Under the pieces are notes generated by a model that ran no database searches, was not told where the DNA came from, and saw only the letters and a program-made list of their open reading frames with translations. Positions 343 to 17,341 of a DNA stretch of 63,565 nt are shown here, piece by piece. The stretch is from contig WHTJ01000014.1 in NCBI GenBank assembly GCA_009377795.1, positions 1 through 63,565 on the forward strand. The letters run 5' to 3'. Position numbers and translations under genes: made by a program. Position 1 is the stretch's first letter, and every line of letters starts with the position of its first letter. The DNA comes from Propionibacteriales bacterium. Lineage in GTDB: Bacteria; Actinomycetota; Actinomycetes; Propionibacteriales; Nocardioidaceae.

Positions 343-1047
343 CTAGAGGCCGAGCACGCTGTGCCGGACCTGAGCGTCGTTGCGTAGCTCCTGCGACGTC
401 CCGGCCATGACGATGCGTCCCTCACCGAGCAGGTACCCGCGGCTGGAGAGGGTGAGGGCGCGCTCGATGTCCTGCTCGACGAGCAGCACGCTCACGCCGT
501 CGGCCCGGATCGCCTCGATCGCGGTGAACATCTCGTCGGTCATCACCGGCGCCAGACCGAGCGACGGCTCGTCCATCAGCAGGATCCGGGGCCGCACCAT
601 CAGCGCCCGGCCGATCGCGAGCATCTGCTGCTCGCCCCCGGACAGGTTCACGGCCTGCTGGCGGGAGCGTTCGGCGAGGCGGGGAAACAGCCGCTCCACC
701 CGGGCGAGCGTCTCGCGGTGAACGCGGCGGGCGCCGCGCCGGTACGCACCCAGCAGCAGGTTGTCTCGTACCGACATCTGGGCGAAGACCCGCCTCCCCT
801 CCGGGACGATCGCCAGCCCGTGAGAGCAGACCCGCTGCGGCGCGACCGTGGTCAGGTCCGCGCCGTCCAGCATCACCCGCCCACGGATCGGGCGGAGCAG
901 CCCGGCGATCGCGGTCACCAGGGTGGACTTGCCGGCACCGTTGGGACCGATGACGCTGACGATCTCCGCATCACCCACATCGAGGTCCACCCCCCACAGC
1001 GCCTGGGCATGACCGTGGAACGCGTCCAGTTGCCGGATCTCAAGCAT
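343..1047 (-). CDS. Branched-chain amino acid-type ABC transporter ATP-binding protein (LivF-like)
   Basis: This is a 234-residue ABC ATPase of LivF size. It energises uptake of a small organic substrate together with the fused permease/ATPase and LivH-like permease encoded just upstream. Walker A (GPNGAGKST) is at residues 34-42, the signature LSGGEQ at 135-140 and Walker B (ILLMDEP) at about 155-161. The ATG at 1045-1047 overlaps the end of the fused livM-livG gene by 8 bp, so translation is probably coupled. It is the last gene of a minus-strand operon that starts at 10564. Family identity is clear; the substrate is unknown and, given the hydrolase genes in the operon, need not be an amino acid. 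Confidence 0.93.
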   Translation of the reverse strand: MLEIRQLDAFHGHAQALWGVDLDVGDAEIVSVIGPNGAGKSTLVTAIAGLLRPIRGRVMLDGADLTTVAPQRVCSHGLAIVPEGRRVFAQMSVRDNLLLGAYRRGARRVHRETLARVERLFPRLAERSRQQAVNLSGGEQQMLAIGRALMVRPRILLMDEPSLGLAPVMTDEMFTAIEAIRADGVSVLLVEQDIERALTLSSRGYLLGEGRIVMAGTSQELRNDAQVRHSVLGL

Positions 1048-3088
1048 GCTCGCCCCCCGACTCCCCGACCGGCACTTGTCGCCCGCTGTCGCCGAGGTAG
1101 ACCCGGACGACCTCCGGATCCCGCATCACGGTCCGCGGATCACCGTCGGCCAGCAGACGACCCCGGTCGAGCACCACGAGCCGGCCGGCCAGCCGGTTCA
1201 CCACCCGCAGCAGGTGCTCCACGATCACGATCGTGACGCCGTCGGCGTGGATACGTCGCACGACCTCCACCGCGTTGTCGATCTCGGCGGGGTTCAGCCC
1301 GGCCAATGCCTCGTCGAGCAGCAGCACCCGGGGGCTGGTGGCCAGCGCCCGGGACATCTCCAGGAGCTGCCGCTGGTGCAGGTTGATGTCCTGCGGACGG
1401 GCCGAGGCGAGGTCACCCAACCCGACGAACTCCAGATGCCGGGCCGCCTGCCGCCGGGCCTCGGCGAGCCCCCGCGGCTGGTGGCCGAACATCACCGCCA
1501 TCGCGACGTTGTCCCGCAGCGTCATGGACTGGAACGGCCGCGGGATCTGGTACGTACGCGTGATGCCCACGTGGCTGAACATGTGCGGGGCCAGCCGCGC
1601 CGTGTCGCGACCGGCGACCCGGATGCTCCCGCGGGTGGGCCGCATCGCCCCGGAGAGCAGGTTGACCAGCGTGGTCTTGCCGGACCCGTTGGGCCCGATC
1701 AGCCCGACCAGCTCCCCCTCCCGGATCTGCAGGTCCAGCCCGTCGAGCGCGTGCACGCCGCCGAAGTGGCGCGCCAGTTCGCGGCACTCGACCACGATCT
1801 CGTGGCCCGGCTCGACGGGCCCGGTGGTCTCAGACCGGCGGGCGACCGCGGTGGCCGGTTCGCCGGACGCGCGGTCCGCCGGCTCGGGACTCGGCTCCAG
1901 GCTCGGCTCCGGGCTCGGCTCCGGGCTCGGCTCGGCGCTCGGCTCGGCGCTCGGCTCGGGTTCGGCGGGCGGGGACGCGGCGGGGGTGGCGGCGGCGGTA
2001 CGCAGCCGCGGCGGCACCAAGACGGTCGGCCAGAACGCGACCGCGGCGGTGACCAGCATGGCCAGGGCGACCTGGTCGAGCAGCCCACCGGGCGCGACCA
2101 GCAGGAGGACGACCAGGCTGCCCGTCCAGGCGAGCGCGGTCGCCCGCGGGCGGGCGCGCAGCCGGGACCACAGCCCGTCCGGCGCGAAGATCACCATCGC
2201 CGCCAGCAGGCCGCCGAAGACGATCAGCCGCCAGCTCTCGAACGCACCGCCGGCCAGCCGGTCCTGCAGCAGCACGATCACCGCGGCGCCGATCACCGGG
2301 CCGAGCCAGTGGGTGCGTCCACCCAGGACGCTCATCAAGATCACGAACAGCGGGATGGTGAGGCCGAACACGACCTCGGCCTGGATGAACCCGAACTGCA
2401 GGGCCCAGGCGCTGCCCGCGATCCCGCCGATCGCCCCGGTGGCCGCGATGGCGAGCATCTTCCAGCGGAACGTCGGCACACCCAGGCCCTCGGCGACGTC
2501 CTCGTTGTCGCGGATCGCGGCGAGCGCCCACCCGAAGCGGGAATGGTGGATCGCGTACGCCCCGGCCACGGCGGCCATCGCGATCACCAGCGTGACGAGG
2601 TAGAGGAACTCCTGGAAGACCAGCGGCTCGGGTACCTCCGGCACGGGCACCAGCACCCCCTGGCCGCCGTCGATCGCGCTGCTGAGCCGCGCGACCGCCG
2701 CCAGGATGAACGGCACCGCGAGAGTCAGCAGCGCGAACGTCGCGCCCCGGAACGAGCCGAGCCGGAACGCCACCGCACCGATGCCCAGGGCAAGCAGTGT
2801 GGACAGCACCGCGGCGGCGGGCAGCGTGAGGTAGAAGCTCCACCCGTGCTGGGACGTCAGCACCGCCGTGGTGTAGACGCCCACACCCACGAAGGCGCCC
2901 TGGCCGAAGCTGAAGTAGCCGGTGTAGCCGGACAGGATGTTCCAGCTGGTGGCCTGCGCGGTCCAGAAGAACAGCGTGCTCATCAGGCTGATGTAGAACA
3001 GCGACACCCCGAGTGGCTCGCGGAACACCGCCAGCCCGGCGAGCCCGACCAGCACCAGCAAGAACCCCAGGAGGCCGCGGCGCATCAT
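1040..3088 (-). CDS. LivM-LivG fusion: ABC permease plus ATPase in one chain
   Basis: The 682-residue protein joins a LivM-type inner-membrane permease (about 1-310) to a LivG-type ATPase (about 430-682, Walker A GPNGSGKT near 465-472). Between them are two extra hydrophobic segments (about 322-357) and a low-complexity linker at about 369-405 built from repeated EPS/PEPS units. The ATPase signature is a loose NLHQRQ rather than LSGGQ, and Walker B reads LLLDEALAG. A longer open frame runs further upstream, but that part is the shadow of livH. The start chosen is the first of two ATGs (3086-3088), which overlaps the livH stop by 4 bp. LivM and LivG are usually separate genes. A second, independent fusion lies at 24121-25980. 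Confidence 0.9.
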   Translation of the reverse strand: MMRRGLLGFLLVLVGLAGLAVFREPLGVSLFYISLMSTLFFWTAQATSWNILSGYTGYFSFGQGAFVGVGVYTTAVLTSQHGWSFYLTLPAAAVLSTLLALGIGAVAFRLGSFRGATFALLTLAVPFILAAVARLSSAIDGGQGVLVPVPEVPEPLVFQEFLYLVTLVIAMAAVAGAYAIHHSRFGWALAAIRDNEDVAEGLGVPTFRWKMLAIAATGAIGGIAGSAWALQFGFIQAEVVFGLTIPLFVILMSVLGGRTHWLGPVIGAAVIVLLQDRLAGGAFESWRLIVFGGLLAAMVIFAPDGLWSRLRARPRATALAWTGSLVVLLLVAPGGLLDQVALAMLVTAAVAFWPTVLVPPRLRTAAATPAASPPAEPEPSAEPSAEPSPEPSPEPSLEPSPEPADRASGEPATAVARRSETTGPVEPGHEIVVECRELARHFGGVHALDGLDLQIREGELVGLIGPNGSGKTTLVNLLSGAMRPTRGSIRVAGRDTARLAPHMFSHVGITRTYQIPRPFQSMTLRDNVAMAVMFGHQPRGLAEARRQAARHLEFVGLGDLASARPQDINLHQRQLLEMSRALATSPRVLLLDEALAGLNPAEIDNAVEVVRRIHADGVTIVIVEHLLRVVNRLAGRLVVLDRGRLLADGDPRTVMRDPEVVRVYLGDSGRQVPVGESGGEHA

Positions 3089-3993
3089 CGGGCCACCCTC
3101 GGCAGCCGCCCCCGGCCGGGCAGGGTCACGCCCCATGCCCCCGCGAACAACCCGTACGGCCGCAGCAGCAGCGCCAGGACGATCGCCACGAACACCACCA
3201 GCAAGGACGCGGTCGTCTCCCAGAGCAGCGACGTCACGCTGGCGAGGGCGCCCACCAGCATGCCCGCCACGAGCGTGCCGAGCACCTGGCCGATACCACC
3301 CAGGATCACGACCGCGAACACGATCCCGATCCACTCGAACGGGGCGTCCGGCACGAGCCGGAAGCTCAGCGCCCACAGCATGCCGGCGATCGCCGCGGTG
3401 GCACCGGACGCGCCCGCCAGCAGCATGCCGAGCCGGCCGTGGTCGATGCCGCATGCCGCGGCCATGTCCCGGTCCTCGGCGAACGCGCGCAGCGCGCGGC
3501 CGGTGAAGGTGGTCCGCAGCAGCACCCAGGCGCCGACGATGACCGCCACGCCGAGACCGAACGCGATCAGCCGGGGCATCGGGAGCACCAACGGTCCCAG
3601 GAACCACGACTGCGTGCCGTACGGGTTGACCTGCGGCCCCAGCGCCCGGAAGTCGGCGCTCCACACGTTGTGCACCACCTGGATGGTGATGATCATGACG
3701 CCGAAGCTCACCAGCAGCGAGGTGAACTCGGCCAGCCCGGCCCGCTCGTACACCCAGTGCAGGCCGACGCCCAGCAGGAACAGCAGCGGAGCCGTCACGA
3801 GGATGCTGAGGATCGGGTCGACACCCCACCACCTGCCCAGCTGGAACGTGAAATAGGCACCGAGCAGGATCATCCCGAAGTGCGCCAGGTTGATGATCCG
3901 CAGCATCCCCCACGACACGGACAGCCCCACCGCCATCATCGCGTACATGCCACCGAGCATCGCCCCCGTCACCAGCGCCTGCACGATGCTCAT
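3085..3993 (-). CDS. Branched-chain amino acid-type ABC permease (LivH-like)
   Basis: The 302-residue, very hydrophobic protein has the usual LivH opening (a first helix followed by GMYAMMAVGLS and a helix ending INLAHF) and about eight predicted membrane segments. It forms the second transmembrane half of the importer with the LivM part of the downstream fusion. The stop overlaps the next start (ATGA), and the solute-binding lipoprotein gene lies 44 bp upstream. Glycines and the short cytoplasmic EDRDMAAACG loop resemble the coupling loop of this family. The substrate is not predictable. Confidence 0.9.
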   Translation of the reverse strand: MSIVQALVTGAMLGGMYAMMAVGLSVSWGMLRIINLAHFGMILLGAYFTFQLGRWWGVDPILSILVTAPLLFLLGVGLHWVYERAGLAEFTSLLVSFGVMIITIQVVHNVWSADFRALGPQVNPYGTQSWFLGPLVLPMPRLIAFGLGVAVIVGAWVLLRTTFTGRALRAFAEDRDMAAACGIDHGRLGMLLAGASGATAAIAGMLWALSFRLVPDAPFEWIGIVFAVVILGGIGQVLGTLVAGMLVGALASVTSLLWETTASLLVVFVAIVLALLLRPYGLFAGAWGVTLPGRGRLPRVAR

Positions 3994-4037
3994 CTACGCG
4001 ACCTCATCCGTCGGGGGCGGGACTGTCCACGTGCGGG

Positions 4038-5324
4038 TCAGTTACGGGGCGGCGCCACCTCGGCCGCCGCCCGGTCCTCCGGCCAGACCATGACCCATTC
4101 TCCGTCCTGGATCTGCTTGAGACCCACATTGGTCTCCCAGAAGTTGTTCGACTCCGAGTCGAACTCCAGGTGGCCGTTGAACGTGGTGTCCACGCCGTTC
4201 TCGGCCAGGTAGTTGCACACCTCCTCCTGGTCGACCGTGCCGGCGCCCTCTACGGCACCGGTCAGGATCTCCCAGGTGTTCCACGAGGCGGCCGCCTGCG
4301 TCTCGAACGCGGTGTACGGCAGGCCCTCGGCCTCGGCACGCTGCCGGTACTCCTGGACGATGCCGCTCACCTCCTCGCCGTACTGATCGATCAGCGCCTT
4401 GTTCGGCTCGAACAGCGACACCGACAGGGTGCCTTCGGCGGGCGGGCCCATCTCGAGTAGCGGCCCCGGCGCGGGGAACAGCGAGAAGAGCATCGGTGGC
4501 TGGTAGTTCAGCTGCGCCATGGCCTCGATGATGCCGACCGGGTCCACGGCGACACCGTTGTTGATCACGACGTCCGCGTCGGCGTCGCGCAGCTGGGTGG
4601 CGATCGAGCCCCAGTCCTGGTTGCCGGGCGGGTACGCCAGCTCGGCGACCACCTCAAGGCCGTAGTCCGGGGCGATGCCGAGCATCCCCCCGCCGCCGCC
4701 CTGCTCGGCGAACCCCTCGGTCATCGGCAGGGTCGAGCCGCTCTCGTTGGTGACCAGCGCGATGGTCTCCGGCGGGTCCGGCAATGTCGAGAGCATCTCG
4801 AACAGCAGCTCCGAGGTGAACACATCCGGCTCGGGGTCCATGGACCAGCCCGGGAACTGGCACTCGTAGCCCAGCAGGGGCGCGTGGATCGCCGTGTGGT
4901 GCGGGATCGCGTAGCCGGCACGCTCGGCGACCGCGACCGCGGGGATGATGTTCGGTGTGGCATACGGGCCGAGGATCAGATCCACCTGCTCCTGGTTGAT
5001 CAACCGCTCGTACAGCGGGGTGACCTGGGCGGAGTCGGACTCGTCGTCCAGCACCTGCCATTCCACCTGGCGGCCGAGCAGCCCGCCGTTCTCGTTGAGC
5101 TGCTCGACGAACTGCTCGCCGACGATCCGGTGGATTATCGCGGTCGGGCCGAAGTCACCGGTGAGGGACAACGTCGACCCCACGACGATCGGCTCTTCGC
5201 TCTGCTCGCCGTCGCCGTCGCCGGCGCCCGGGTCGGCGCCGGTTTCGTCGTCCCCACCGCAGGCGGCGAGGACCAGCGCCGTCGCCGCCAGGACCGTGCT
5301 GATGGTGTGTGCACGCCGTCTCAT
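4038..5324 (-). CDS. ABC transporter substrate-binding lipoprotein (LivK/Peripla_BP_6-like)
   Basis: The 428-residue precursor carries a lipoprotein signal: MRRR, a hydrophobic stretch, then LVLAAC with the acylated Cys at about residue 22, followed by a Gly/Asp-rich spacer. The mature part opens with PIVVGSTLSLTGDFGP and contains NENGGLLGRQVE, both typical of receptor-type binding proteins of the Liv class. It should capture the ligand outside the membrane and deliver it to the downstream permeases. The longest open frame starts at 5525, but the signal peptide fixes the start at the ATG 5322-5324. It is the fourth gene of the operon, 34 bp after the amidohydrolase at 5359, so hydrolase products are natural candidate ligands (inference). 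Confidence 0.92.
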   Translation of the reverse strand: MRRRAHTISTVLAATALVLAACGGDDETGADPGAGDGDGEQSEEPIVVGSTLSLTGDFGPTAIIHRIVGEQFVEQLNENGGLLGRQVEWQVLDDESDSAQVTPLYERLINQEQVDLILGPYATPNIIPAVAVAERAGYAIPHHTAIHAPLLGYECQFPGWSMDPEPDVFTSELLFEMLSTLPDPPETIALVTNESGSTLPMTEGFAEQGGGGGMLGIAPDYGLEVVAELAYPPGNQDWGSIATQLRDADADVVINNGVAVDPVGIIEAMAQLNYQPPMLFSLFPAPGPLLEMGPPAEGTLSVSLFEPNKALIDQYGEEVSGIVQEYRQRAEAEGLPYTAFETQAAASWNTWEILTGAVEGAGTVDQEEVCNYLAENGVDTTFNGHLEFDSESNNFWETNVGLKQIQDGEWVMVWPEDRAAAEVAPPRN

Positions 5325-5358
5325 GTCTCGCCTCTTCGTGGTCAGCCCCGAGGGGGTT

Positions 5359-7080
5359 TCATGTCTTGATCTCGCCACTGTCATGTACGACCTCACCGTC
5401 CACGACGGTGAGCACCGAGCCGACCCGCCGGATGTCGTCCTCCGGGACCGTGAAGTAGTCGCGGTCCAGCACGACCAGGTCGGCGAGCTTCCCGGGCTCG
5501 ATCGAGCCGAGCTCGTCGTCGGCACGCAGGAACCAGGCGTTCTCCCGGGTGAACGCGCGAAGCGCCTCCTCGCGGGTGATCTGCTGGCCGTCGTTGATCA
5601 GCTCGCCGAACGCGTTGACGCCGGTCACCGCGTAGTGCATGTGCGGCCACGGCATCAGCGTCGAGATGTGCGCGCCGTCGCCCTCGATGCCCGCCTTGAT
5701 CCCGTGGTCCACGATCGTCCGGAACGGTGCGCCGTTGCTCTGCGCGGTCCCGACCACCCAGGTGAACGCACGCATGACCACGCCGGCGCCCAGCGCGTGG
5801 AGACGATCGAGCAGATCCTCGGTGACGTCGGGAACGTGGTGGACGATGTACCGGTCGCCGGTGATGCCGAACTCGGCGTCGACCGCCTCCCACGCCTCGA
5901 CGACCCGGGTGAGCTCGTCCAGGTTGCCGACTGCGTTCTCGTTTCGCCATCCGGCCTCGGCGACCACCCGCTGCGCCTCGAACCACACGTCGCCGGCGGA
6001 GATCGGCGCGGCCCACTCGCCGATCGCGCCGGTACGCATCATGTCGTCGCCGAAGAACTGGAACTGGTTCTTCAGTCGTTCCCGCAGCTCCGGGAGCTCC
6101 GGGTCGCTCTGGTTGTGCAGGAAGTTGAACTCCATCCGAATGCTCGTCTCGCCGTTGCGGTGCAGGTGCAGCAGCGGGTCGTACATCCGGTAGTGGTCAA
6201 GGTTGGACAGCACCTGGCTGGGGTGCAGCGGTCCGGGCGTCGGGAACAGCACCTTGTCGCTGTGTGCGGTGAGGCCGACGCTCGCCGAGTAGGCCATCAT
6301 GTCCCGGCTGCTGCGCAGCTTGTCGTCGAACGTCTGCAGCGTCCGCAGGACGAACAGGGCGGTGGTCGCCGGCGTCGCCACGCCGAACCCGCCGGAGGCG
6401 ATGGACCCGTCGTCGGCCACGTTGATCTTCACGGCGTCCGGGTGCGGTGGCGGCCCCGCGTCGACCTCGTCGAAGAACGCCTTGCCGAGGCTGTTCGTCG
6501 CGGCCGGCCCCGTGAACCGCTCGTAGAGCAGCACCGGCCGGTCGGGCACCGCGTCGTCGAGCTCGTCAAGGGTCGGCCGCCGGTGCTCGGCCCACTGGTT
6601 CGGGTGCCAGCCGCCGAGCGCGGTGATCCACTGACCGTCCGGCACGTCCGGCCGCCGCGCGGCCAGCGACTCCTGGACGTCCGCGATCGAGGTCGCGCGC
6701 TCGACCTCCGCGACGTGGTACCCGGGCCGGTTCGCCAGGCTCACCGAGTGGACGTGGCTCTCGATGATGCCGGGGACGACGGTACGTCCGCGCAGGTCGA
6801 TCACCCGACCGCCGGGGTCGCCCACGCCGTCGCCGACCGCGACGAACCGGCCGCCTCGGATCGACACCGCGCGGGCGACCGTGTTGTCCGCGTCCATCGT
6901 GTGGATCCTGCCGTTGACCAGGGCCAGCGCATCGTCGCCGGCGCGACCGGGCGGACCGGCACGCGAGCCCCGCGGACCGGTGGCGGCCGCGGGCGCTGCG
7001 CCGACACCCCCCAACGTCGCGGCCACTCCGGCCGCCGCGCCCGTCCTCAGGACGTCCCGCCGGGAGACTCGACCACTCAT
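5359..7080 (-). CDS. Tat-exported amidohydrolase (Amidohydro_3 type), copy 1
   Basis: This 573-residue protein is a metal-dependent hydrolase of the amidohydrolase superfamily. It begins with a twin-arginine signal (SRRDVLRTG, then an Ala/Gly-rich hydrophobic stretch ending AAPAAA), so the folded enzyme should be exported. The family opening VNGRIHTMD precedes the metal motif HVH at residues 109-111. The C-terminal hallmark IEPGKLADLVVLD is present. The closest relatives in the window are the two genes directly upstream. The start at 7080 overlaps the previous stop by 4 bp. The reaction may be cleavage of an amide, carbamate or cyclic ureide-type bond; the substrate is not known. Confidence 0.9.
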   Translation of the reverse strand: MSGRVSRRDVLRTGAAAGVAATLGGVGAAPAAATGPRGSRAGPPGRAGDDALALVNGRIHTMDADNTVARAVSIRGGRFVAVGDGVGDPGGRVIDLRGRTVVPGIIESHVHSVSLANRPGYHVAEVERATSIADVQESLAARRPDVPDGQWITALGGWHPNQWAEHRRPTLDELDDAVPDRPVLLYERFTGPAATNSLGKAFFDEVDAGPPPHPDAVKINVADDGSIASGGFGVATPATTALFVLRTLQTFDDKLRSSRDMMAYSASVGLTAHSDKVLFPTPGPLHPSQVLSNLDHYRMYDPLLHLHRNGETSIRMEFNFLHNQSDPELPELRERLKNQFQFFGDDMMRTGAIGEWAAPISAGDVWFEAQRVVAEAGWRNENAVGNLDELTRVVEAWEAVDAEFGITGDRYIVHHVPDVTEDLLDRLHALGAGVVMRAFTWVVGTAQSNGAPFRTIVDHGIKAGIEGDGAHISTLMPWPHMHYAVTGVNAFGELINDGQQITREEALRAFTRENAWFLRADDELGSIEPGKLADLVVLDRDYFTVPEDDIRRVGSVLTVVDGEVVHDSGEIKT

Positions 7081-8768
7081 CGGCCGGCCTCCCCGGTCTC
7101 GTGCACGATCCGCCCGCCGGCGACCGTCAGCACCGACCGGATCCGGCGGAGCCGCTCGTCCGGCACGGTGAAGTAGTCCTCGTTCAACACGACGAGGTCG
7201 GCCAGCTTGCCCGGCTCGATCGTGCCCAGGCTGTCCTCCTCGCGGAGGAACCAGCCGTTGTCCCGGGTGTACAGGCGCAGGACCTCCTCCCGGGAGATCT
7301 GCTGGCCGTCGTTGATCAGCACACCGCGTGCGTTGAGCCCGGTCGTGGCGTAGTACATGTGGATCCACGGGTTCATCGGGGCGATCTGCATGCCGTCGGA
7401 GCTCATCCCGGCGTTGATCCCGCTGTCCACGATCATCCGGAACGGCGGTCCGTTGCTCGAGGGTGAGCCGGCGAGGTACCGCCAGCCGGTGAGCGACAAC
7501 CCGCCACCCAGGGCCTGGTGCCGGCTCACGTACTCCTCGGTGATGAACGGCACGTGCGCGACCACCCAGCGCAGGTCGGTGATCGGGAACTCCTTGTTGA
7601 CCGCCTCGAACGCCTCGATCTCGTTCACGAAATCGGTCGTGCTCAGTGAATGCACCTCGGCCCGCCAGCCGGCCTCCGCCACGCGCCGCGCCGCGGCCAG
7701 GAACGGGCTGCTCGGTCCGGTGCCCTGGGCGATGAACTCTCCGATACCGCCGGTGCGCACGAAGTCGTCGCCGAAGAACTGGAACGCGTTCCGCAGCCGC
7801 TCGACCAGCTCCGGGGTGGCCGGGTCGGACTCCATGTGCAGGAAGTTGATCCGCAGCCTGGCGAGCAGCTCGCCGTCCTCGTGCACGCTGAGGAACGGCA
7901 GGTGCATGGCGAAGTTGTCCTCGTGGGCCGCACCGTCGGACGCCGTGCCCGTCGTCTGGAAGGCACCCTGGTCCAGGTGCGTGGTCACGCCGAGACCGAG
8001 CCCGTAGTTCAGCGCGTCGACCGCGCCACGCTTGCGGGCCTCGAAGTCCAGGAGCGTCTGGCGCAGCGCGAACGTCGCCTGTCCGGTCGGGCTGGTCCCG
8101 AACCCTCCGGCGATCGAGCCGTCGTCGCCGACCGGTGTCCCCCGCCCTTCGAAGAACGCCTTACCGCGGCTGTTGGTCGTCGACGGTCCGCTGAACGACT
8201 GCGAGATGTACGCGGGGTTGTCCGGAACCGCCTCGTCGAGCTCGGCCAGCGTCGGGAAGCGGGGCGTCTCGCCGGGCGGCACGAGGTGGTTGATGTGGAA
8301 GCCGCCGATCGTCGTGATCCACCCACCGTCCGGGATGCCGGACCCACGCGCCGCGTAGATCTCCTGGACATCGGAGATCGAGGCGGCGTTCTCCAGCGGC
8401 GTGTGGAACCCCGGCCGGTTGCCCATCAGGACGATGTGGTTGTGGTTGTCGATGATCCCCGGGACCACTGTGCGGCCACGCAGGTTGATGGTCCGCGTAC
8501 CCGGTCCCGGGTTGCCCACGTCGTTGCCGACGGTGACGAACCGGCCGTCGCGGATCGACACCGCGCGGGCGACCGTGTTGTCCGCGTCCATCGTGTGGAT
8601 CCTGCCGTTGACCAGGGCGAGCGGCCCGTCGTCGGGACCTCCGGGAGAACCTCCTCCCGAAGGTCCGAACGCCGCCGCCCGACCCGCACCGGCACCACCG
8701 ACCGCGGCAACGACCCCCGCCGCCGCGCCGGTCTTGAGTACGTTCCGTCTGGAGATGCGCCCGTTCAT
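7077..8768 (-). CDS. Tat-exported amidohydrolase (Amidohydro_3 type), copy 2
   Basis: The 563-residue middle member of a tandem triplet has Tat motif SRRNVLKTG and metal motif HNH in the stretch GIIDNHNH. The C-terminal hallmark is IEPGKLADLVVLN. It resembles copy 1 over its whole length and shares with it a 68-bp DNA tract without a single mismatch (8551-8618 versus 6857-6924), evidence of recent duplication or gene conversion. Elsewhere the copies have diverged, for example FSGP versus FTGP in the central region and SHNH-type versus SHVH-type metal sites, so substrate ranges may differ. Both ends overlap neighbours by 4 bp. Confidence 0.9.
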   Translation of the reverse strand: MNGRISRRNVLKTGAAAGVVAAVGGAGAGRAAAFGPSGGGSPGGPDDGPLALVNGRIHTMDADNTVARAVSIRDGRFVTVGNDVGNPGPGTRTINLRGRTVVPGIIDNHNHIVLMGNRPGFHTPLENAASISDVQEIYAARGSGIPDGGWITTIGGFHINHLVPPGETPRFPTLAELDEAVPDNPAYISQSFSGPSTTNSRGKAFFEGRGTPVGDDGSIAGGFGTSPTGQATFALRQTLLDFEARKRGAVDALNYGLGLGVTTHLDQGAFQTTGTASDGAAHEDNFAMHLPFLSVHEDGELLARLRINFLHMESDPATPELVERLRNAFQFFGDDFVRTGGIGEFIAQGTGPSSPFLAAARRVAEAGWRAEVHSLSTTDFVNEIEAFEAVNKEFPITDLRWVVAHVPFITEEYVSRHQALGGGLSLTGWRYLAGSPSSNGPPFRMIVDSGINAGMSSDGMQIAPMNPWIHMYYATTGLNARGVLINDGQQISREEVLRLYTRDNGWFLREEDSLGTIEPGKLADLVVLNEDYFTVPDERLRRIRSVLTVAGGRIVHETGEAGR

Positions 8769-10564
8769 CTGCCGACCTCCCTCGTGTCGTGCACGATCCG
8801 GCCGCCGACGACGGTGAGCGCGGGACGGATCCGCCGCATCTCCTCGTCGCTGACACCGAAGTAGTCCTTGTCGAGCACGAGCAGGTCGGCCAGTTTTCCG
8901 GGCTCGATCGAGCCGAGCTCCTGCTCGCGGTTCAGATACCACGCGTTGCCGCGGGTGTACATGTGCAGCGCCTGCTGGCGGGAGATCTGCTGGCCGGGGT
9001 TGATCTGCTCGCCGAACCAGTTCAGCCCGGTCGTCGCGTAGTGCAGCGCGAAGAACGGGTTGTGCGGGGCGATGTGCACGCCGTCCTCATGCAACCCTAG
9101 GGTGATCCCGCTGGCGACGAGCCTGGGGAACAGCGGCCCTCTCGGCTCACCGGACGCCAACGGGCTGTTCTGCCAGCGGAAGCCGGACGTCGAGACGCCC
9201 ACGTTGAGGTCCCTCAGCCGCCGGAGCTGGTCCTCGGTCGCGAAGTCGCCGTGCTGGAGCCCCCACCGCAGGTCCGTGATGCCGAACTCGGCGTCCATGG
9301 CCTCGTACGTCTCCACGACCTGCTGCACGTTGGTCACGCTGGACTGGCTGTTCTCGTTGCGCCAGCGGGCCTCGGCGACCAGGCGCTGCGCCTCGAACCA
9401 GACCTCGTATCCGGACGGGTTGGATGCCTGCAGGGCGAACGGCGCGGCCCACTCGCCGATCGCTCCGGTCCGGAGCAGGTCGTCGCCGAAGAACTGGAAC
9501 TGGTTCTTCAGCCGCTCGCGCAGCTCCGGGAGCTGGTTCTCCAGGCCGCCGAGATCCGGGTTGTTGCCCTGGTTGTGCAGGAAGTTCATCTGCAGCCGCA
9601 CGAGCGCGTCGCCGTCGCGGTGCACGTCGATCCAGCCGTCGTACATCCGGAAGTGGTCGAGCGTGGCAAGCGCGTGGTTCGGCTGCGGGTCGCGCGGACC
9701 GAAGCCGACCGCCACCAGCGTCTGGTCGAGGTTGGCCGTGATGCCGACCTGGGCGGAGAAGGCCATCGCGTCACGCGCACTGCGCTTCTTGTCCTCGAAC
9801 GTCTGGCGCACTCGCAGGTGGTACAGGGCGGTCGTCGACTGCAGACCGCCGGCGATCGAGCCGTCGTCGCCGACGGTGACCGGTCCGGCCAGCGGCGAGG
9901 TGACGTTCTCGAAGAACTCCTTGCCGAGGTTGTTCACCCGCGACGGCCCGTTGAACCGCTGGAAGAGCAGGACTGGCCGGTCGGGCACCGCCTCGTCGAG
10001 CTCGGCGAGCGTCGGGAGACGCCGCTCGGCCCACTGGTTCGGATGCCAGCCACCGATCGCCGTGATGAACGCACCCTCCGGCACGTCGCCTTGCGCCCGG
10101 CGGGCGGCCAGCATCTCCAGGACCTCGGCGATCGAGCTCGCCAGCTCGAGCTGGGCGACGTGGTGCCCGGGGCGGTTGGCGAGGCTCACGTAGTGCGTGT
10201 GGCTCTCGATCAGGCCCGGGACGACGGTGCGGCCGCGCAGGTCGATGACCCGCCCACCCGGGTTGGGCGCCGCGTCGCCGACGGCGATGAAGCGTCCGTT
10301 CCTCATCGACACCGCGCGGGCCACCGTCCCGGCGTCGTCCATGGTGTGGATCCGGCCGTTGACCAGGGTCAGCGCCTCGTCGCCGGTAGGTCCGCCCGGC
10401 GGGCCCGCACCCGACGGTGGTGCCGCCGCCTGCGCGGCGGCCGCCTCCCCGGTGGTCGCGCCGCCGAGTGCCGCGGCGGCTCCCGCCACCGCACCCGTCC
10501 TGAGGACGTCTCGGCGCGAGATTCCCCTACCCCGAGTCCGATTCTGGCTGTCGTGATCGCCCAT
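8765..10564 (-). CDS. Tat-exported amidohydrolase (Amidohydro_3 type), copy 3, first gene of operon
   Basis: The 599-residue protein has a longer N-terminus before the Tat motif SRRDVLRTG. The metal motif is HTH in GLIESHTH, and the C-terminal hallmark is IEPGKLADLLVLD. It is the promoter-proximal gene of the seven-gene operon reaching 343. The ATG at 10562-10564 is the only strong start ahead of the Tat signal. Compared with copies 1 and 2 it has an insertion after LHNQGN and more substitutions, so it looks like the oldest branch of the triplet. The 204 bp upstream (10565-10768) must hold the promoter and contain GTTAAC at 10672-10677 and the half-repeat at 10702-10730. Confidence 0.9.
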   Translation of the reverse strand: MGDHDSQNRTRGRGISRRDVLRTGAVAGAAAALGGATTGEAAAAQAAAPPSGAGPPGGPTGDEALTLVNGRIHTMDDAGTVARAVSMRNGRFIAVGDAAPNPGGRVIDLRGRTVVPGLIESHTHYVSLANRPGHHVAQLELASSIAEVLEMLAARRAQGDVPEGAFITAIGGWHPNQWAERRLPTLAELDEAVPDRPVLLFQRFNGPSRVNNLGKEFFENVTSPLAGPVTVGDDGSIAGGLQSTTALYHLRVRQTFEDKKRSARDAMAFSAQVGITANLDQTLVAVGFGPRDPQPNHALATLDHFRMYDGWIDVHRDGDALVRLQMNFLHNQGNNPDLGGLENQLPELRERLKNQFQFFGDDLLRTGAIGEWAAPFALQASNPSGYEVWFEAQRLVAEARWRNENSQSSVTNVQQVVETYEAMDAEFGITDLRWGLQHGDFATEDQLRRLRDLNVGVSTSGFRWQNSPLASGEPRGPLFPRLVASGITLGLHEDGVHIAPHNPFFALHYATTGLNWFGEQINPGQQISRQQALHMYTRGNAWYLNREQELGSIEPGKLADLLVLDKDYFGVSDEEMRRIRPALTVVGGRIVHDTREVGR

Positions 10565-10701
10565 CGATGGACACCGCCTTCACACCGTTCGTCCCGGACA
10601 GGACGGGTGCAGCTCTTAGGCGCGGAGTTTAGGCTCACTGAACGTGGTGTGCAATACCGCTGTTCGCAGTTGTTAACACTTCGTTGATCTCCGACTCGAC
10701 G

Positions 10702-10768: not shown

Positions 10769-11587
10769 TCAGTGCGAGGACTCGGCGATGAACCAGACGC
10801 CCACCGCGGGTTCGGAGCCCTCGTTGCGGTAGCCGTGCGGCGTGGTCGAGTCGAAGGAGATGGCGTCCCCCGCCTGCAGATGGTGCTCGTCGAACGCCAG
10901 CGTGAGGATCAGTTCACCCCGGATCAGGTATCCGTACTCCGTGCCCGTGTGGCGCATCAGCGCGCCGGACGTCGAGGACGACCCACCGGGCTGGTAGGTC
11001 ACGAGCAGGAAGTCGGCGTGGATGCCCGGTACCTGCCCGAGCAGCTCCCAGACCACGCCGCTTTCCAGGGTGAGGCCCTCGCGGTCGTCCGGGTGGACCA
11101 CGGGACCGACCCGTCGTCCGCGGTCCCGTCCGACCGTTCGCGGCGTCGGGCGGGCTGACGGCTGGTCGGCCGAGCGGATCGTCCCGATGGCGTGGACCGC
11201 CCCCGCCACCGCCGTCGCGTCGATCGCGGCCGCGTCGGACGGGGCATCGTCGGTGGCGGCCTCGACGGATTCGGGCGCCGCGTCGCCGGGAGCGAAGAGG
11301 TCCTCGATGGAGATGTCCAACGCGGTCGTGATCGCGTACAGAGTGCTCACCGACGGCTGGCTGCGCCCGGTCTCGATCTGGGAGATGAGGCTCGCCGACA
11401 CGCCGATGTCGCGGGCCAGACCCCGGACGGTCACGCCCCGCCTGGCCCGCTCCTCGCGGATTCGTTCTCCGATCGGCGGCACGCTGGGTGGGCTCACGCT
11501 GCGCTCTCCGCTGGACTCTCCGGTCGCCGACAGCGTCGGGCGAAGAGTACCGCCGCCACCGTCGGCTCCACGCGAAACCGGCGTCAT
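10769..11587 (-). CDS. XRE-family transcriptional regulator with C-terminal cupin
   Basis: The 272-residue one-component regulator has a helix-turn-helix of XRE/Cro type (from about residue 40: [14 protein letters not shown], then [13 protein letters not shown]) joined by a roughly 90-residue Ala/Asp-rich spacer to a cupin barrel in the last 90 residues ([14 protein letters not shown], then [17 protein letters not shown]). Such proteins bind DNA with the HTH and sense a small ligand in the cupin. It sits between two divergent units, the exported hydrolase/importer operon and the seven-gene catabolic operon, and is the obvious local regulator of both. A TTG one codon earlier (11590) is an alternative start. 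Confidence 0.88.
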
Positions 11588-11667
11588 CAACCGCCTCCCG
11601 AATCCCGCCGCGCCTGATGATCGTCCGCAGCGGGTTGACGGGTTCGCCCGCGTCGGTTTAACTCATG

Positions 11668-11720
11668 GTAAGCGTTACTGAACATCTCACGCGAACTGTA
11701 CGCGCGACCGGATGTCCGGT
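11668..11720. promoter_or_regulatory. Two palindromes in the regulator/catabolic-operon promoter region
   Basis: Between the regulator start (11587) and the M24 gene start (about 11755) lie GTAA-GCG-TTAC (11668-11678) and ACCGGA-TG-TCCGGT (11707-11720). Either could be the operator of the divergent XRE-cupin protein. Both are seen directly; the assignment to that regulator is inference. Confidence 0.4.
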
Positions 11721-11754: not shown

Positions 11755-13092
11755 ATGGACACGATGGCGATCCACACGTACGGCACTAACGCCGTCGACT
11801 GGGAGGAGCGGATCGATCTCGATCGGCTCCGCGACGAGCGACTAGCCAGGCTGCAGACCACGCTCGAGGCCTCGTCATTGGGGTCCCTCCTCACGTTCGA
11901 CTTCTCCAACATCCGCTACATGACCTCCACCCACATCGGCACCTGGGCGATGGACAAGCTGATCCGGTTCGCCGTGCTGCCCCAGGGCGGCAAGCCGGTG
12001 GTCTGGGACTTCGGCTCCGCCGCCAAGCATCACCAGCTCTACAACCCCTGGCTGGAAGGCGAGTCCCGCGCCCGCGCGGGCATCTCCACGCTGCGGGGCG
12101 CGTTCAACCCGGACGCCGGGATCGCCGAGGAGGTCGCCCGCAAGGTGGCCGAGGTGTTGACCGAGCACGGGCTCGAGAAGGAGCCGGTCGGCGTCGACAT
12201 CGTGGAGATGCCCATCCTGGCCGCACTTCGCCAGCAGGGGCTCGACGTGGTCGACGGCCAGCAGGTGTTCCTGAGCGCGCGGCGGATCAAGACGAAGGAC
12301 GAGATCGCGCTGCTCACCCAGGCGTGCTCCATGGTCGATGCGGCGTACGAGGAGCTCTACCGGTTCCTGCGGCCCGGTGTACGCGAGAACGAGTGCGTCG
12401 GGCTGGTCTCGAAGGTGCTGTACGACCTCGGCAGCGAGTACGTCGAAGGGGTCAACGCCATCTCCGGCGAGCGCTGCTCACCGCATCCGCACGTCTACAG
12501 CGACCGGCTGGTCCGTCCCGGCGATCCGGCGTTCTTCGACATCCTGCACAGCCACCTGGGCTACCGCACCTGCTACTACCGCACGTTCGCCGTCGGCAGC
12601 GCGTCCGTCGCGCAGCAGGACGCCTACACCCGGTGCCGGGAGTTCATCGACCATGCCATCTCGCTGGTCAAGCCCGGTGCGACCACCGGCGACATCGTGT
12701 CGGTGTGGCCACGAGCCGAGGAGTTCGGCTTCCCCGACGAGGAGGCCGCCTTCGCCCTGCAGTACGGACACGGCGTCGGGATGTCGATCTGGGAGAAGCC
12801 GATCTTCTCCCGGCTGGTGTCGCTGGACCATCCGGAAACCCTGGAGGAGGGCATGGTCTTCGCCCTCGAGACGTTCTGGCCGGCCGGCGACGGCTGGTCC
12901 GCGGCCCGGATCGAGGAGGAGGTCGTGGTCACCGCGGACGGATGCGAGGTGATCACCAAGTTCCCGGCCGAGGAGCTCCTGGTCGCCGGCCAGAAGTACT
13001 GGACGGCCGGCGGTTCCCTGGACACCCTGCGCGAGGCACAGTCGCACCTGAACACCAACTCCAAGCCGACGAACGATGGCCGTGTCGACTGA
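11755..13092 (+). CDS. M24-family (creatinase/prolidase fold) hydrolase with an altered metal site
   Basis: About 445 residues with a creatinase-type N-terminal domain and a pita-bread C-terminal domain. Four of the five usual M24 metal-ligand positions are visible: Asp in FFDILHS, His in GHGVGMSIW, Glu in MVFALETF and Glu in ARIEEEVVV. The second Asp of the canonical DAG(x)nSD pattern is replaced (GYRTCYYRTF, Cys at the position). It may therefore act without the normal dinuclear metal centre, as creatinase does, or use a modified one. AGGAGG at 11746-11751 fits either ATG 11755 or ATG 11764. It is the first gene of a seven-gene operon, and the next gene starts 17 bp before its end. Confidence 0.82.
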   Translation: MDTMAIHTYGTNAVDWEERIDLDRLRDERLARLQTTLEASSLGSLLTFDFSNIRYMTSTHIGTWAMDKLIRFAVLPQGGKPVVWDFGSAAKHHQLYNPWLEGESRARAGISTLRGAFNPDAGIAEEVARKVAEVLTEHGLEKEPVGVDIVEMPILAALRQQGLDVVDGQQVFLSARRIKTKDEIALLTQACSMVDAAYEELYRFLRPGVRENECVGLVSKVLYDLGSEYVEGVNAISGERCSPHPHVYSDRLVRPGDPAFFDILHSHLGYRTCYYRTFAVGSASVAQQDAYTRCREFIDHAISLVKPGATTGDIVSVWPRAEEFGFPDEEAAFALQYGHGVGMSIWEKPIFSRLVSLDHPETLEEGMVFALETFWPAGDGWSAARIEEEVVVTADGCEVITKFPAEELLVAGQKYWTAGGSLDTLREAQSHLNTNSKPTNDGRVD

Positions 13093-14086
13093 AGCCGGCC
13101 AGCTCACCGACCAGGCAGCGGAGCTGCTGGACCTCTACCAGCAGATGGCGGTCATCCGCCGTACCGAGAAGGCGGCCAACGACCTGTTCCTGGCCGGACT
13201 CGTGAAGGGCACGACCCACCTCGCCGCCGGGCAGGAGGCGGTCGCGGTCGGCGCCAGCGCCGCGTTGCGTCCCGACGACTACGTGTTCGCCACCTATCGC
13301 GGTCACCACCACGCCATGGCGCGCGGGGCGTCGCCGGAGGCCTGTCTCGCCGAGCTGATGAGCAAGTCGACCGGGCTGTGCGGCGCCAAGGGCGGGTCCA
13401 TGCACCTGACCAAGGCCGACACCGGGATGCTCGGGTCGTACGCCATCGTCGGCTCGCACCTGCCGATGGCGACGGGCGCCGCGTGGTCGGCGACCCTGCG
13501 CGGTACGGAGCAGGTGGCGGTGGCGTTCTTCGGCGACGGGGCCACGAACATCGGGGCGTTCCACGAGGCGCTCAACCTGGCCGCGGTATGGCGGCTGCCG
13601 GTGTTGTTCGTCTGCGAGAACAACCTCTACATGGAGTACACCCCGATCGGCTCGGTCACCGCGGTCGCCAACCCGGCGGCCGATCGGGCGTCGGCGCACA
13701 ACCTGCCGTCGGAGGTCATCGACGGCAACGACGTGCTGGTCGTACGCGACCGGATGAGCGAGGCGGTCGCGCGTGCGCGTGCGGGAGGAGGGCCCACCGT
13801 GCTGGAGGCCCGCACCTACCGGCACTACGGGCACAGCCGCACCGACCCGGCGAAGTACCGGCCGGAGGACGAGGTACGCGACTGGATGGCACGCGACCCG
13901 CTGACGGTGACCCGCGAGCAGCTCAGCCGGTTGGGGATCGGAGACGGCCCGCTCGACGAGGCCGACCAGCGCGCCGACCAGATCATCGCGGCCGCGGTCG
14001 ACGCCGCCAAGGCGGCGCCCGGTCCCGACCTCGGTGCCACGTACACCCATGTCTGGGCGGAGGAGAGTACGACATGGCGGACGTGA
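13076..14086 (+). CDS. Thiamine-diphosphate-dependent 2-oxoacid/acetoin dehydrogenase E1, alpha subunit
   Basis: The 336-residue E1 alpha subunit has the ThDP-binding motif from GDGATN (153-158) to ENN (about 181-183). The stretch YRGHHHAMARG and GAKGGSMHL are typical of acetoin/pyruvate dehydrogenase alpha chains. It would decarboxylate or cleave a 2-oxo acid or acetoin-like substrate together with the beta subunit encoded next (13-bp overlap). No E2 acyltransferase or E3 gene is seen in the operon, so either it borrows components from elsewhere or it works with another acceptor. Acetoin-type AcoA is the closest named comparison, but the substrate is unproven. Confidence 0.9.
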   Translation: MAVSTEAGQLTDQAAELLDLYQQMAVIRRTEKAANDLFLAGLVKGTTHLAAGQEAVAVGASAALRPDDYVFATYRGHHHAMARGASPEACLAELMSKSTGLCGAKGGSMHLTKADTGMLGSYAIVGSHLPMATGAAWSATLRGTEQVAVAFFGDGATNIGAFHEALNLAAVWRLPVLFVCENNLYMEYTPIGSVTAVANPAADRASAHNLPSEVIDGNDVLVVRDRMSEAVARARAGGGPTVLEARTYRHYGHSRTDPAKYRPEDEVRDWMARDPLTVTREQLSRLGIGDGPLDEADQRADQIIAAAVDAAKAAPGPDLGATYTHVWAEESTTWRT

Positions 14087-15051
14087 CTTACCGAGATGCT
14101 GTCGCCGACGGCATCGCCCGCGAGATGCGGCGCGATCCGACCGTCGTCTGCCTGGGCGAGGATATCGGAGCGGCCGAGGGCGTGTTCAAGACCACGGTCG
14201 GACTGTTCCAGGAGTTCGGCCCGAAACGGGTGTGGGACACCCCTATCTCGGAGCAGGCGATCGTCGGCGCCGCGCTGGGCGCGGCGATGACCGGGATGCG
14301 CCCGGTCGCCGAGATCATGTTCTCCGACTTCCTCGCGTGCTGCTGGGACTACATGGCCAACGAGATCCCGAAGGTGCGTTACATGACCGGCGGCCAGCTG
14401 AGCGCGCCGCTGGTGGTGCGCACCGCCAACGGCGGCGGGCTCGGCTTCGGGGCGCAACACTCGCAGGCGGTGGAGAACTGGACGTTCACCGTACCCGGCC
14501 TCAAGGTCGTCGCCCCGTCGACGCCGGCCGACGTGGTGGGGTTGATGGCCTCGGCGATTCGCAGCGAGGACCCCGTGGTCTTCTTCGAGCACAAGGGACT
14601 CCTGGCAACCAAGGGCCCGGCGGCACCCGACGATCACGTGGTGCCGCTCGGCGAGGCGGCGGTCGTACGAGACGGCAGCGACGTCACGCTGGTGGCTCTC
14701 GCGTCCACCGTGCCGACATCGCTCGCCGCCGCCGACGTGCTGGCCGAGGAGGGGATCTCGGCGGAGGTCGTCGACCTGCGCTGCCTCGTCCCGCTCGACA
14801 TGCGCCGGGTCCTGGACTCGGTGCAACGTACCTCGCGACTGGTCATCGTCGAGGAGAACCCGTACCAGGGTGGTTGGGGAGGCACGGTGGCGTCGATCGT
14901 CGCCGACGAGGGCTTCGAGCTGCTCGACGCACCCATCCGCCGGGTGGCGGCGGCATGCGTGCCGCTGCCGTTCGCCGACGTACTCGAGGCCGAGGCCATC
15001 CCCTCCGCCGACGACGTTGTCGACACCGTGCGCCGACTGACCGCCTACTGA
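14074..15051 (+). CDS. Thiamine-diphosphate-dependent dehydrogenase E1, beta subunit
   Basis: The 325-residue beta partner of the preceding gene has the family opening TYRDAVADGIAREM, CLGEDIG and DTPISEQAIVGAALGAA, followed by the transketolase C-terminal domain (CLVPLD, EENPYQGGWG). The start is the ATG at 14074, preceded by AGGAGAG (14061-14067). The open frame extends 5', but that part is a shadow of the alpha gene. The alpha and beta genes overlap by 13 bp, consistent with a stoichiometric heterotetramer. Confidence 0.92.
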   Translation: MADVTYRDAVADGIAREMRRDPTVVCLGEDIGAAEGVFKTTVGLFQEFGPKRVWDTPISEQAIVGAALGAAMTGMRPVAEIMFSDFLACCWDYMANEIPKVRYMTGGQLSAPLVVRTANGGGLGFGAQHSQAVENWTFTVPGLKVVAPSTPADVVGLMASAIRSEDPVVFFEHKGLLATKGPAAPDDHVVPLGEAAVVRDGSDVTLVALASTVPTSLAAADVLAEEGISAEVVDLRCLVPLDMRRVLDSVQRTSRLVIVEENPYQGGWGGTVASIVADEGFELLDAPIRRVAAACVPLPFADVLEAEAIPSADDVVDTVRRLTAY

Positions 15052-15086
15052 CCGACGACATCCATCCACGCAGGAGGGTCAGGCAC

Positions 15087-16439: not shown

Positions 16440-17341
16440 CGTCCTCGTCTCGGCACGTCGTACGCCGGGCCTCGGAGGCGACGTACGCCGCACCCACCGA
16501 AGAGTCGGCGACCGGCAGCACCGGATTCTCCTGCTGGCGGGCCGTCGACGAGACCACGCCGGCCGTGCACACCGGCTTCGCAGTCTGCCGCCTGGAGCCC
16601 GGCGGATCGGTGCCGGCCGGCGTGCAGTCGTTCGAGGAATGCGTGTACGTCCTCGACGGTACGGTCGTGCTCACGACCCCCGAGGGCGACAGGGCGCTGG
16701 GGCCGGGCGACTACGGCCTCATACCGATCGGGCTCCCCCATGCGTGGCGCAACGACGGGGACGAGCCCGCCCGGTGGGCGCGGATGCTCGCGCCACAGCC
16801 ACGGTCCCGGTACGCCGGAGACGCGATCGCGGTCCCCACCCTGCCGGCCGGCTCCGCGGCCGCGGTCGACGTCCGCGACCCGCGCAACCGGCTGTTCGGG
16901 CACATCGAGCTGGAGAACATGGACGTCGGCAAGCAGTCACAGGACCTGCTCGCGGCGTCGGCGAGCATGCGTACCGCGTTGCTCGTCTACAGCGGGATCA
17001 CCGTGAAGATGATGGTGGACTCCGACCTGGGTGCCCAGCACACGACCATGTTCATGGTGCACTACGACCCGGATGGGGTGGCCGGGCCGCATGACCATCC
17101 GTTCGAGGAGACGTACCTCTTCCTCGAGGGCCGGGTCGAGGCCGAGTTCGACGGCGAGCGGTACGAGCTGGGGCCCGGCGACGTCGCGTTCGCGGGCGTC
17201 GGATGCGTACACAGCTTCCGCAACCTGGGCCACGGCCCGCTGCGGTGGCTGGAGACGCAGGCTCCGCAGCCGCCGAGCCGGCACTCCTACCGGTTCGTCC
17301 GGGACTGGGACTACCTGCGCAGCGCGCTGGAAGGGAGCTGA
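16436..17341 (+). CDS. Two-domain cupin protein (bicupin)
   Basis: The 301-residue protein has two cupin barrels. The first (about 45-125) has EECVYVLDG and LIPIGLPHAWRN; the second (about 205-285) has GPHDHPFEETYLFLEG and GVGCVHSFRN, with the HxH...E...H metal ligands intact in the second barrel and degraded in the first. The architecture resembles (S)-ureidoglycine aminohydrolase and other ureide-processing bicupins, which would suit a nitrogen-rich substrate, but I cannot assign the reaction. The ATGA overlap with the amidohydrolase gene suggests a consecutive or accessory step. Confidence 0.8.
   Translation: MTSSSRHVVRRASEATYAAPTEESATGSTGFSCWRAVDETTPAVHTGFAVCRLEPGGSVPAGVQSFEECVYVLDGTVVLTTPEGDRALGPGDYGLIPIGLPHAWRNDGDEPARWARMLAPQPRSRYAGDAIAVPTLPAGSAAAVDVRDPRNRLFGHIELENMDVGKQSQDLLAASASMRTALLVYSGITVKMMVDSDLGAQHTTMFMVHYDPDGVAGPHDHPFEETYLFLEGRVEAEFDGERYELGPGDVAFAGVGCVHSFRNLGHGPLRWLETQAPQPPSRHSYRFVRDWDYLRSALEGS

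Follow-up and report, generated by a model that had tools for sequence, protein, structure and literature searches.

The window analysed here, a stretch of 63,565 nucleotides from a Propionibacteriales bacterium of the family Nocardioidaceae (contig WHTJ01000014.1), begins with a gene island in which three hydrolases of the Amidohydro_3 family (PF07969), hyd1, hyd2 and hyd3, all bearing motifs of the twin-arginine translocation (Tat) route, precede an ATP-binding cassette (ABC) importer of Liv type and face, across an XRE-cupin regulator gene, a divergent cytosolic module. The gene order of the island is conserved in some other actinomycetes, its parts co-occur, and its hydrolases belong to two co-occurring classes that differ at the metal site. 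The island is probably catabolic, with exported hydrolases that would cleave a small conjugate, a dedicated LivMG-fusion importer that would take up the product, and cytosolic enzymes that would degrade it. What is new beyond a preliminary description of this DNA is the existence of two hydrolase classes with their pairing, together with related motifs at both divergent promoters, which hint at one regulon.

Anatomy of the export-import operon

The hydrolase and importer genes are the following, in order of coordinates:

343-1047, minus: LivF-type ATPase (ABC_tran, 100.4 bits)
1040-3088, minus: LivM-LivG fusion, permease plus ATPase (BPD_transp_2, 115.4 bits; ABC_tran, 89.6 bits)
3085-3993, minus: LivH-type permease (BPD_transp_2, 108.7 bits)
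4038-5324, minus: substrate-binding lipoprotein of LivJ/HAAT type (Pfam Peripla_BP_6, 114.2 bits versus 31.7; lipobox LAAC found by eye)
5359-7080, minus: hyd3, Tat-motif Amidohydro_3 protein of the variant class, in a subclade other than that of hyd1 (Pfam, alignment, tree)
7077-8768, minus: hyd2, Tat-signal Amidohydro_3 protein of the canonical class, with H109, H111, H373, H405 and D458 (Pfam, alignment)
8765-10564, minus: hyd1, Tat-signal Amidohydro_3 protein of the variant metal-site class, with no His at the strand-5 column (Pfam)

The preliminary description had proposed three tandem Tat-signal Amidohydro_3 genes joined by 4-bp overlaps and followed by a binding lipoprotein and an ABC importer, and the genes lie as it said, the lipoprotein being of LivJ type and the importer comprising LivH, LivM-LivG and LivF. 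By their coordinates, the hyd1/hyd2 and hyd2/hyd3 junctions overlap by 4 bp each, gaps of 34 bp and 44 bp separate hyd3 from the lipoprotein gene and the latter from LivH, and the LivH/LivMG and LivMG/LivF overlaps are 4 bp and 8 bp, respectively; judging from this spacing, the genes would form one operon. The window starts at the contig edge, on the LivF side. The hydrolases are full-length Amidohydro_3 proteins of 563-599 aa, with scores far above the cut-off of 29.7 bits (hyd1 189.5, hyd2 188.1, hyd3 193.6) and a domain match that stops 7 residues short of the C-terminus in all three. By Pfam, the importer is complete in its five Liv functions (binding protein, two permease domains and two ATPases), which take up four genes owing to the LivM-LivG fusion, also present in importer relatives. 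The importer falls under the NCBIfam equivalog cut-offs for LivF, LivG, LivH and urea transport (LivF 232.5 versus 441, UrtB 137.1 versus 250.3, UrtD 164.4 versus 304.1).

Twin-arginine motifs are present in hyd1 (SRRDVLRTG), hyd2 (SRRNVLKTG) and hyd3 (SRRDVLRTG), and the TAT_signal Pfam model gives 25.9, 23.2 and 20.3 bits, respectively, against a cut-off of 22.7, so that hyd3 lies under the cut-off with its motif present. The motif is found in all 27 hydrolases inspected from the window and 12 other actinomycete holders (23 by script, two by eye and two separately), a count for which start codons were picked with the motif in mind and two extra copies of genome G463 were left out. Thus, hyd1-3 are predicted to be exported by the Tat route.

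Two hydrolase classes and their pairing

Among 50 aligned copies, a His on strand 5 of the barrel (H373 of hyd2) is present in 21/21 canonical rows and 0/29 variant rows, the classes being defined by this column, which the other columns follow, and the strands being placed from the hyd2 AlphaFold2 (AF2) model. The metal ligands of a hyd2-type site are presumably the HxH of strand 1, the His residues of strands 5 and 6 and the Asp of strand 8. hyd2 carries this full set, and hyd1 and hyd3 keep the HxH, the strand-6 His and the Asp without the strand-5 His; since they lack a His kept at a metal-ligand position in all canonical rows, three equivalent enzymes would be the wrong picture. The variant rows have fixed residues of their own, namely Trp345, Asn372 and His461 in 29/29 and His456 in 27/29 (hyd3 being one of the two exceptions), with a new His near the catalytic Asp. 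Moreover, the catalytic Asp458 is retained in 28/29 and the strand-6 His in 26/29, so the variants do not seem to be simple dead copies and their metal site looks rebuilt.

The AF2 models of hyd2 and hyd1 (pLDDT 89.7 and 89.5) have the amidohydrolase barrel fold, with best VIA-align Z scores of 32.0 and 34.7, respectively, and their nearest structures include 3icj, 3igh, triazine hydrolase, cyclic deaminases and imidazolonepropionase. By VIA-align, hyd1 comes closest to the uncharacterised Pyrococcus Amidohydro_3 proteins 3icj and 3igh (Z 34.7 and 33.2), which Foldseek also places nearest to hyd2 among solved structures (E 6.8e-30 for 3icj), yet at just 17-18% identity. In the VIA-align list of hyd2, triazine hydrolase comes first (Z 32.0), and 3igh has 30.0.

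In a tree of 50 rows (47 of 50 locus copies plus the three from the window, with L006:2515, L022 and L033 left out and no alignment row from L037, L038, L040, L042 or L043), the 29 variant rows form a single branch with support of 100/100. hyd1 and hyd3 fall into separate subclades of variants, both of which include copies from other phyla, and hyd2 is placed among the canonical rows. That the triplet arose by a recent, lineage-specific tandem duplication without functional split, as three adjacent paralogues might suggest (identity to hyd1 is 53% for hyd2 and 60% for hyd3), is very improbable, being contradicted by the tree, in which each hydrolase groups with relatives of its own from other genera and phyla, and by the class differences at fixed columns.

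A canonical copy is present in 28 of the 31 variant-bearing genomes, window included. The sample covered the 39 genomes behind 41 of 44 loci, leaving out those of L038, L042 and L043, in two batches with cut-offs of E≤1e-120 and E≤1e-90. In the first, all 17 genomes hold a variant and 16 of them also a canonical copy, the exception being Phytohabitans suffuscus (G457), where a distant canonical copy is still possible given the differing cut-offs. Of the 22 genomes in the second, 13 hold a variant, with a canonical copy alongside in 11, eight hold canonical copies only, and one (G490) gave no match at the cut-off; some canonical copies of this batch are distant, and the two exceptions, G480 and G485, hold a divergent variant also devoid of the strand-8 Asp. 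Two weaker extra copies in G463 were left unclassed in the count. As the genomes were picked for holding a hydrolase and are partly related, the pairing is a strong pattern to which no probability attaches; in the genomes checked, the hyd1/hyd3-type variant is, by these sequence matches, rarely found without a canonical relative. A further step, possible but doubtful, would be a near-obligate two-part extracellular enzyme, in which a canonical amidohydrolase and a partner with a rebuilt site, Tat-exported and acting as a complex or in successive steps, would feed a dedicated importer in actinomycetes.

The regulator, the cytosolic module and conservation of the island

On the other side of hyd1 lie the regulator and the module:

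10769-11590, minus: XRE-type helix-turn-helix plus Cupin_2 regulator (HTH_3, 48.6 bits; Cupin_2, 61.6 bits; start perhaps a GTG near 11497)
11755-13092, plus: M24-family enzyme, DddP-like (Pfam, 130.1 bits; start perhaps 11665)
13076-14086, plus: E1 alpha subunit, thiamine-diphosphate dehydrogenase type (Pfam E1_dh, 233.2 bits)
14074-15051, plus: E1 beta subunit (NCBIfam PRK09212, 345.6 versus 321)
15087-16439, plus: cytosolic amidohydrolase of the PRK08204 subfamily, which has no named function (638.3 versus 391)
16436-17341, plus: bicupin (Cupin_2 in two stretches, 110.4 bits)
17345-18022, plus: short-chain dehydrogenase (SDR; Pfam adh_short_C2, 98.8 bits)
18022-18906, plus: 3-hydroxyisobutyrate-dehydrogenase (HIBADH)-like reductase (NAD_binding_2, 138.7 bits; below all named equivalog cut-offs shown)

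The XRE-cupin gene shares the strand of hyd1, 204 bp upstream of it, and the seven-gene module (11755-18906, plus) diverges from it. An amidohydrolase/bicupin/dehydrogenase operon had been described across the regulator; it is there, and also holds the M24 enzyme, E1 alpha and E1 beta. A pyruvate dehydrogenase complex is not formed by these genes, since Pfam finds E1 alpha and beta only and no E2 or E3 among the seven. The best NCBIfam model for the M24 protein is the DMSP lyase DddP, yet the match reaches 132.1 bits where the cut-off asks for 600; the PDB chains nearest to this protein are named just 'Peptidase M24', and 4s00 is presumably a DddP. Plasmid relatives of the cytosolic amidohydrolase (best 45%, one region read) and of the bicupin (6 records, one region read) are too distant for a transfer of function.

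Two candidate operators, both suggestive motif matches, lie at the divergent promoters:

10626-10665: candidate operator region upstream of hyd1, with GTTCAGTGAGCCTAAAC at 10627-10643 and GAACAGCGGTATTGCACA at 10648-10665, read on the minus strand
11666-11684: candidate operator between the XRE and M24 genes, with GTTCAGTAACGCTTACC at 11667-11683, read on the minus strand

An expectation-maximisation search of 17 intergenic stretches returned an 18-bp motif with a score of 220.5 against 133.8-138.7 in 6 shuffles, a control that overstates the motif because sites for both promoters were picked jointly, which favours likeness. In a model of the XRE-M24 sites built with the window omitted, the top place within the 63.5 kb goes to the window's own XRE-M24 site and the next to the hyd1 promoter (10626-10644), at 11.6 versus 10.5 for the best other site. 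Under the reverse model, from hyd-promoter sites, 10648 comes out on top in the window and 11667 follows it (13.6 versus 13.0 for the next); this model also finds the other promoter's site second in Jiangella anatolica, and does not have it in the top two in J. asiatica, Virgisporangium, the Dino metagenome-assembled genome (MAG) or P. suffuscus. In 12 cross-checks, a fairer control, the resampled sequences scoring as high numbered, per 500, 0, 0, 1 and 3 (four strong), 15, 18, 28, 29 and 31 (five middling) and 54, 147 and 191 (three weak), the window's own two being 15 and 1. A 17-base pattern from the two sites has no other match in the 4.58-Mb genome at 0-1 mismatch and two at 2, and its reversed control has 6 at ≤2. 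A comparison of the two promoters for perfect palindromes and k-mers in common revealed nothing shared beyond 9-mers in three species; a dyad count gave words in up to 8/17 regions versus 4-6 in shuffles, several of them confined to Jiangella; and sigma-70 promoter and terminator scans found no more than chance. It is likely but unproven that the XRE-cupin protein controls both operons as one regulon.

A scan of one genome per species (84,980 species) for two conserved peptides returned at least 44 loci. Hydrolase relatives occur in Jiangella, Micromonosporaceae, Microbacterium, Acidobacteria, Burkholderiales and others; no match was found in 57/57 other genomes of the same family or order at E≤1e-40, nor in 395/395 other genomes of a phylum sample at E≤1e-120 (three candidates scored in the genomes listed). 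The scattered relatives suggest horizontal spread. On plasmids, the hydrolases have just distant relatives (best about 30%, 532 records), which give no substrate clue, and the hydrolase neighbours outside Actinomycetota (8 of 12 loci read) have no common theme. Some labels and copies call for comment. Nearly identical hydrolase pairs, with canonical copies in the tree and near-equal match scores, are found in MAGs labelled Rokubacteria and Acidobacteria (L005:8022-11665 and L006:539-4161), and one of the two bin labels is probably wrong. Locus L031, whose label is Bordetella parapertussis, falls with a copy from Acidobacteria and is likewise doubtful. J. ureilytica (G463) has two more adjacent Amidohydro_3 relatives outside the island (contig C107:30939-34098, E about 1e-132).

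The 12 other actinomycete holders comprise Jiangella (4), Micromonosporaceae (7) and Microbacterium (1); L025 and L032 belong to Actinomycetota but stand outside this set. All four Jiangella genomes found keep the island with two hydrolases, hyd2 then hyd1, LivG/LivF of J. asiatica and the HIBADH of J. ureilytica being out of view because the contigs end there. In Virgisporangium, one locus holds the module, the XRE gene, hyd2, the importer and then two variant hydrolases after LivF. Hydrolases, importer, regulator and module thereby stand at one locus in these five genomes (two of the five cut by contig ends), with the XRE-cupin homologue at the equivalent place. Phytohabitans and Dactylosporangium have hydrolase and importer together, with the Phytohabitans module elsewhere, beside another XRE-cupin gene. 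Conservation of the hydrolases next to the importer, which the preliminary description had made the test of its coupled model, is therefore borne out in Jiangella, Virgisporangium, Phytohabitans and Dactylosporangium; the triplet as such is not conserved, the hydrolase copy number varying from one to three. The binding protein is 54-69% identical in 10/12 holders; a hydrolase lies directly upstream of its match, at 30-145 bp, in 8/12, a ninth has a hydrolase beside LivF, and in G452 hydrolase and binding protein are on different contigs. Among the Phytohabitans loci (L013, L131, L014 and L117, a group including P. flavus), LivF is in two pieces and LivM/LivG are in different frames in P. suffuscus, and LivG and M24 are each in two pieces in P. 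flavus; the island may be decaying there, or these may be sequencing errors.

Hydrolases and cytosolic module also occur together. Among the 17 hydrolase genomes queried, the M24 gene reaches ≥75% identity in 11 of 12 actinomycete holders, where the match of G456 is partial and that of G458 split, and in the other five it reaches 64% (G467) or 51-53% (G465, G468) or is missing at E≤1e-100 (G464, G466); only 8/395 other genomes of the phylum sample reach 70% and 3/395 reach 79%. Conversely, none of five module-only genomes (G185, in which HIBADH is not in view, G070 and G085 with the close module; G175 and G442 with a looser one) has a hydrolase at E≤1e-120. Since the module is thus more widespread than the hydrolases, the genes for export and import look as if they had been added to it. 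RidA, a semialdehyde-dehydrogenase-like gene and a lipoyl E2 occur among the looser relatives of the module, whose importers are, by eye, of other kinds. In Microbacterium, the hydrolase pair is divergent, and two M24 genes together with looser module genes are found in its vicinity. The looser modules of L112 and L114 (M24 73-75%) have a fused E1 alpha-beta and, by eye, a different ABC system and a GntR gene; in L114, a lipoyl E2 lies beside E1 and a VOC protein (Pfam), with an aldehyde dehydrogenase found by eye.

Several observations weigh against the catabolic island as proposed. The importer lies within the fetched stretch at only 1/29 loci outside Actinomycetota (L010), and at neither L025 (Acidimicrobiia MAG) nor L032 (Solirubrobacter). 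Microbacterium (G456) and a Micromonosporaceae MAG (G460) have hydrolases and M24 with no binding protein at E≤1e-60, and Dactylosporangium sucinum (G461) has hydrolases and importer with no M24 at E≤1e-100. In P. suffuscus, a single hydrolase reaches the cut-off, and the reading frames of the importer seem broken. A short hydrophobic stretch follows the twin arginines in hyd1 of J. anatolica and J. aurantiaca, which makes their export doubtful. The weak and middling operator cross-checks count on the same side, and the holders are related, so that the counts are not independent. The scarcity of the importer outside Actinomycetota and the two holders without a binding protein would suit hydrolases that act as defensive or detoxifying exo-enzymes against an antibiotic, toxin or signal, with an importer that serves the cytosolic pathway independently. 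Such a role is unlikely, however, given the hydrolase just upstream of the binding-protein match in two-thirds of the holders, the 4-bp coupling of the hydrolases to one another in the window and their co-occurrence with a catabolic module.

Other loci of note lie farther along the window. A second system of Liv type (23385-28120, minus) includes an ABC ATPase and a binding protein of the Peripla_BP_6 family (194 bits); next to it lie an alpha/beta hydrolase gene (20757-22013) and a flavin amine-oxidase-like one (21811-23385). An NMT1-like (TAXI-type) binding protein, a large DctM permease and a sodium:solute symporter follow in series at 37863-43204 (plus). A further catabolic stretch at 46927-55152 includes an HpcH/HpaI aldolase (47722-48642) and another amidohydrolase (48612-50084), with IclR-like, MmgE/PrpD-like and CaiB-like genes around it by eye.

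Substrate, known systems and significance

In the catabolic island proposed here, the XRE-cupin regulator would sense a pathway compound and control both divergent operons. The hydrolases would leave the cell folded through the Tat route, as their motifs suggest, and outside the membrane hyd2 and its variant partners hyd1 and hyd3 may hydrolyse a small conjugate, such as an amide, cyclic amide, carbamate or ester. The LivJ-type lipoprotein and the fused LivMG importer could then take in the released product, and the M24, E1alpha-E1beta, amidohydrolase, bicupin, SDR and HIBADH-like enzymes would convert it to central metabolites.

There is no evidence on the substrate itself, which also counts against the proposal, and the aromatic and nitrogen/aldehyde pointers are both indecisive. 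Amidohydrolase barrels and LivJ-type importers handle small molecules. A nitrogen-containing polymer had been suggested at first; the polymer is unsupported, as nothing tested points to one, and the nitrogen-containing part is neither borne out nor excluded, importer relatives lying near catechol-type dioxygenase-like genes in two Proteobacteria. These relatives lead to a narrower form of the catabolic proposal, in which the conjugate is aromatic or phenolic, the hydrolases would free an aromatic acid or amine for the importer, and the bicupin would be a dioxygenase. In Rhizobium, the genes around importer relatives with the LivM-LivG fusion (binding protein 37-38%) include those for an HpaD-like dioxygenase and an FAA hydrolase; in Schlegelella, others (37-38%, with the fusion) have a catechol-1,2-dioxygenase-like gene close by and a variant hydrolase next to them; and the bicupin has a weak match to quercetin 2,3-dioxygenase (39.1 bits). 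Nevertheless, the dioxygenases of these two genera fall below their NCBIfam equivalog cut-offs, the window operon has no ring-cleavage enzyme apart from the cupin, and the bicupin is about equally weakly matched to ureidoglycine aminohydrolase (34.9 bits against a cut-off of 200). A looser relative (L089) has RidA and a semialdehyde-dehydrogenase-like gene, which point instead to nitrogen or aldehyde chemistry, as does the nearness of the cytosolic amidohydrolase to cyclic deaminases. An aromatic conjugate seems rather improbable.

PF07969 has more than 100,000 sequences in a superfamily that is mostly uncharacterised, according to the part of PMC13081902 available. The metal-dependent bile salt hydrolases of Bilophila treated there are secreted Amidohydro_3 enzymes that cleave a small amide conjugate, and hyd1-3 resemble them in being of this type, with export predicted from their signals. 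However, the Bilophila enzymes are of about 101 kDa with an extra C-terminal domain, which hyd1-3 lack, so these are not members of that group; the accessible text mentions no coupled importer and gives an established substrate (PMC13081902). PA2699 of Pseudomonas aeruginosa is a YtcJ-like, Tat-dependent exoprotein of PF07969, for which the available portion of PMC4899797 mentions no importer, paralogue pair or substrate. With LivJHMGF and UrtABCDE (HAAT), the window's importer shares all five functions, and it differs from them in its LivM-LivG fusion, its scores below the equivalog cut-offs and the Tat-signal hydrolases that precede it. Liv-type importers are a large known family. The earlier statement that no described system has this exact arrangement agrees with a search of open-licence papers, which turned up none, nor any account of the canonical-variant pair. 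Extracellular hydrolysis followed by ABC uptake is rated as a known kind of system, of which the arrangement here would be a variant.

The island gives one PF07969 branch a context of importer, regulator and cytosolic pathway, and its substrate can therefore be sought through the ligands of one lipoprotein and the induction of one regulon. The pairing poses a testable question, namely why an enzyme with a changed metal site seldom lacks a canonical relative. If the two-part reading were true, it would represent a new kind of paired exo-amidohydrolase across several phyla.

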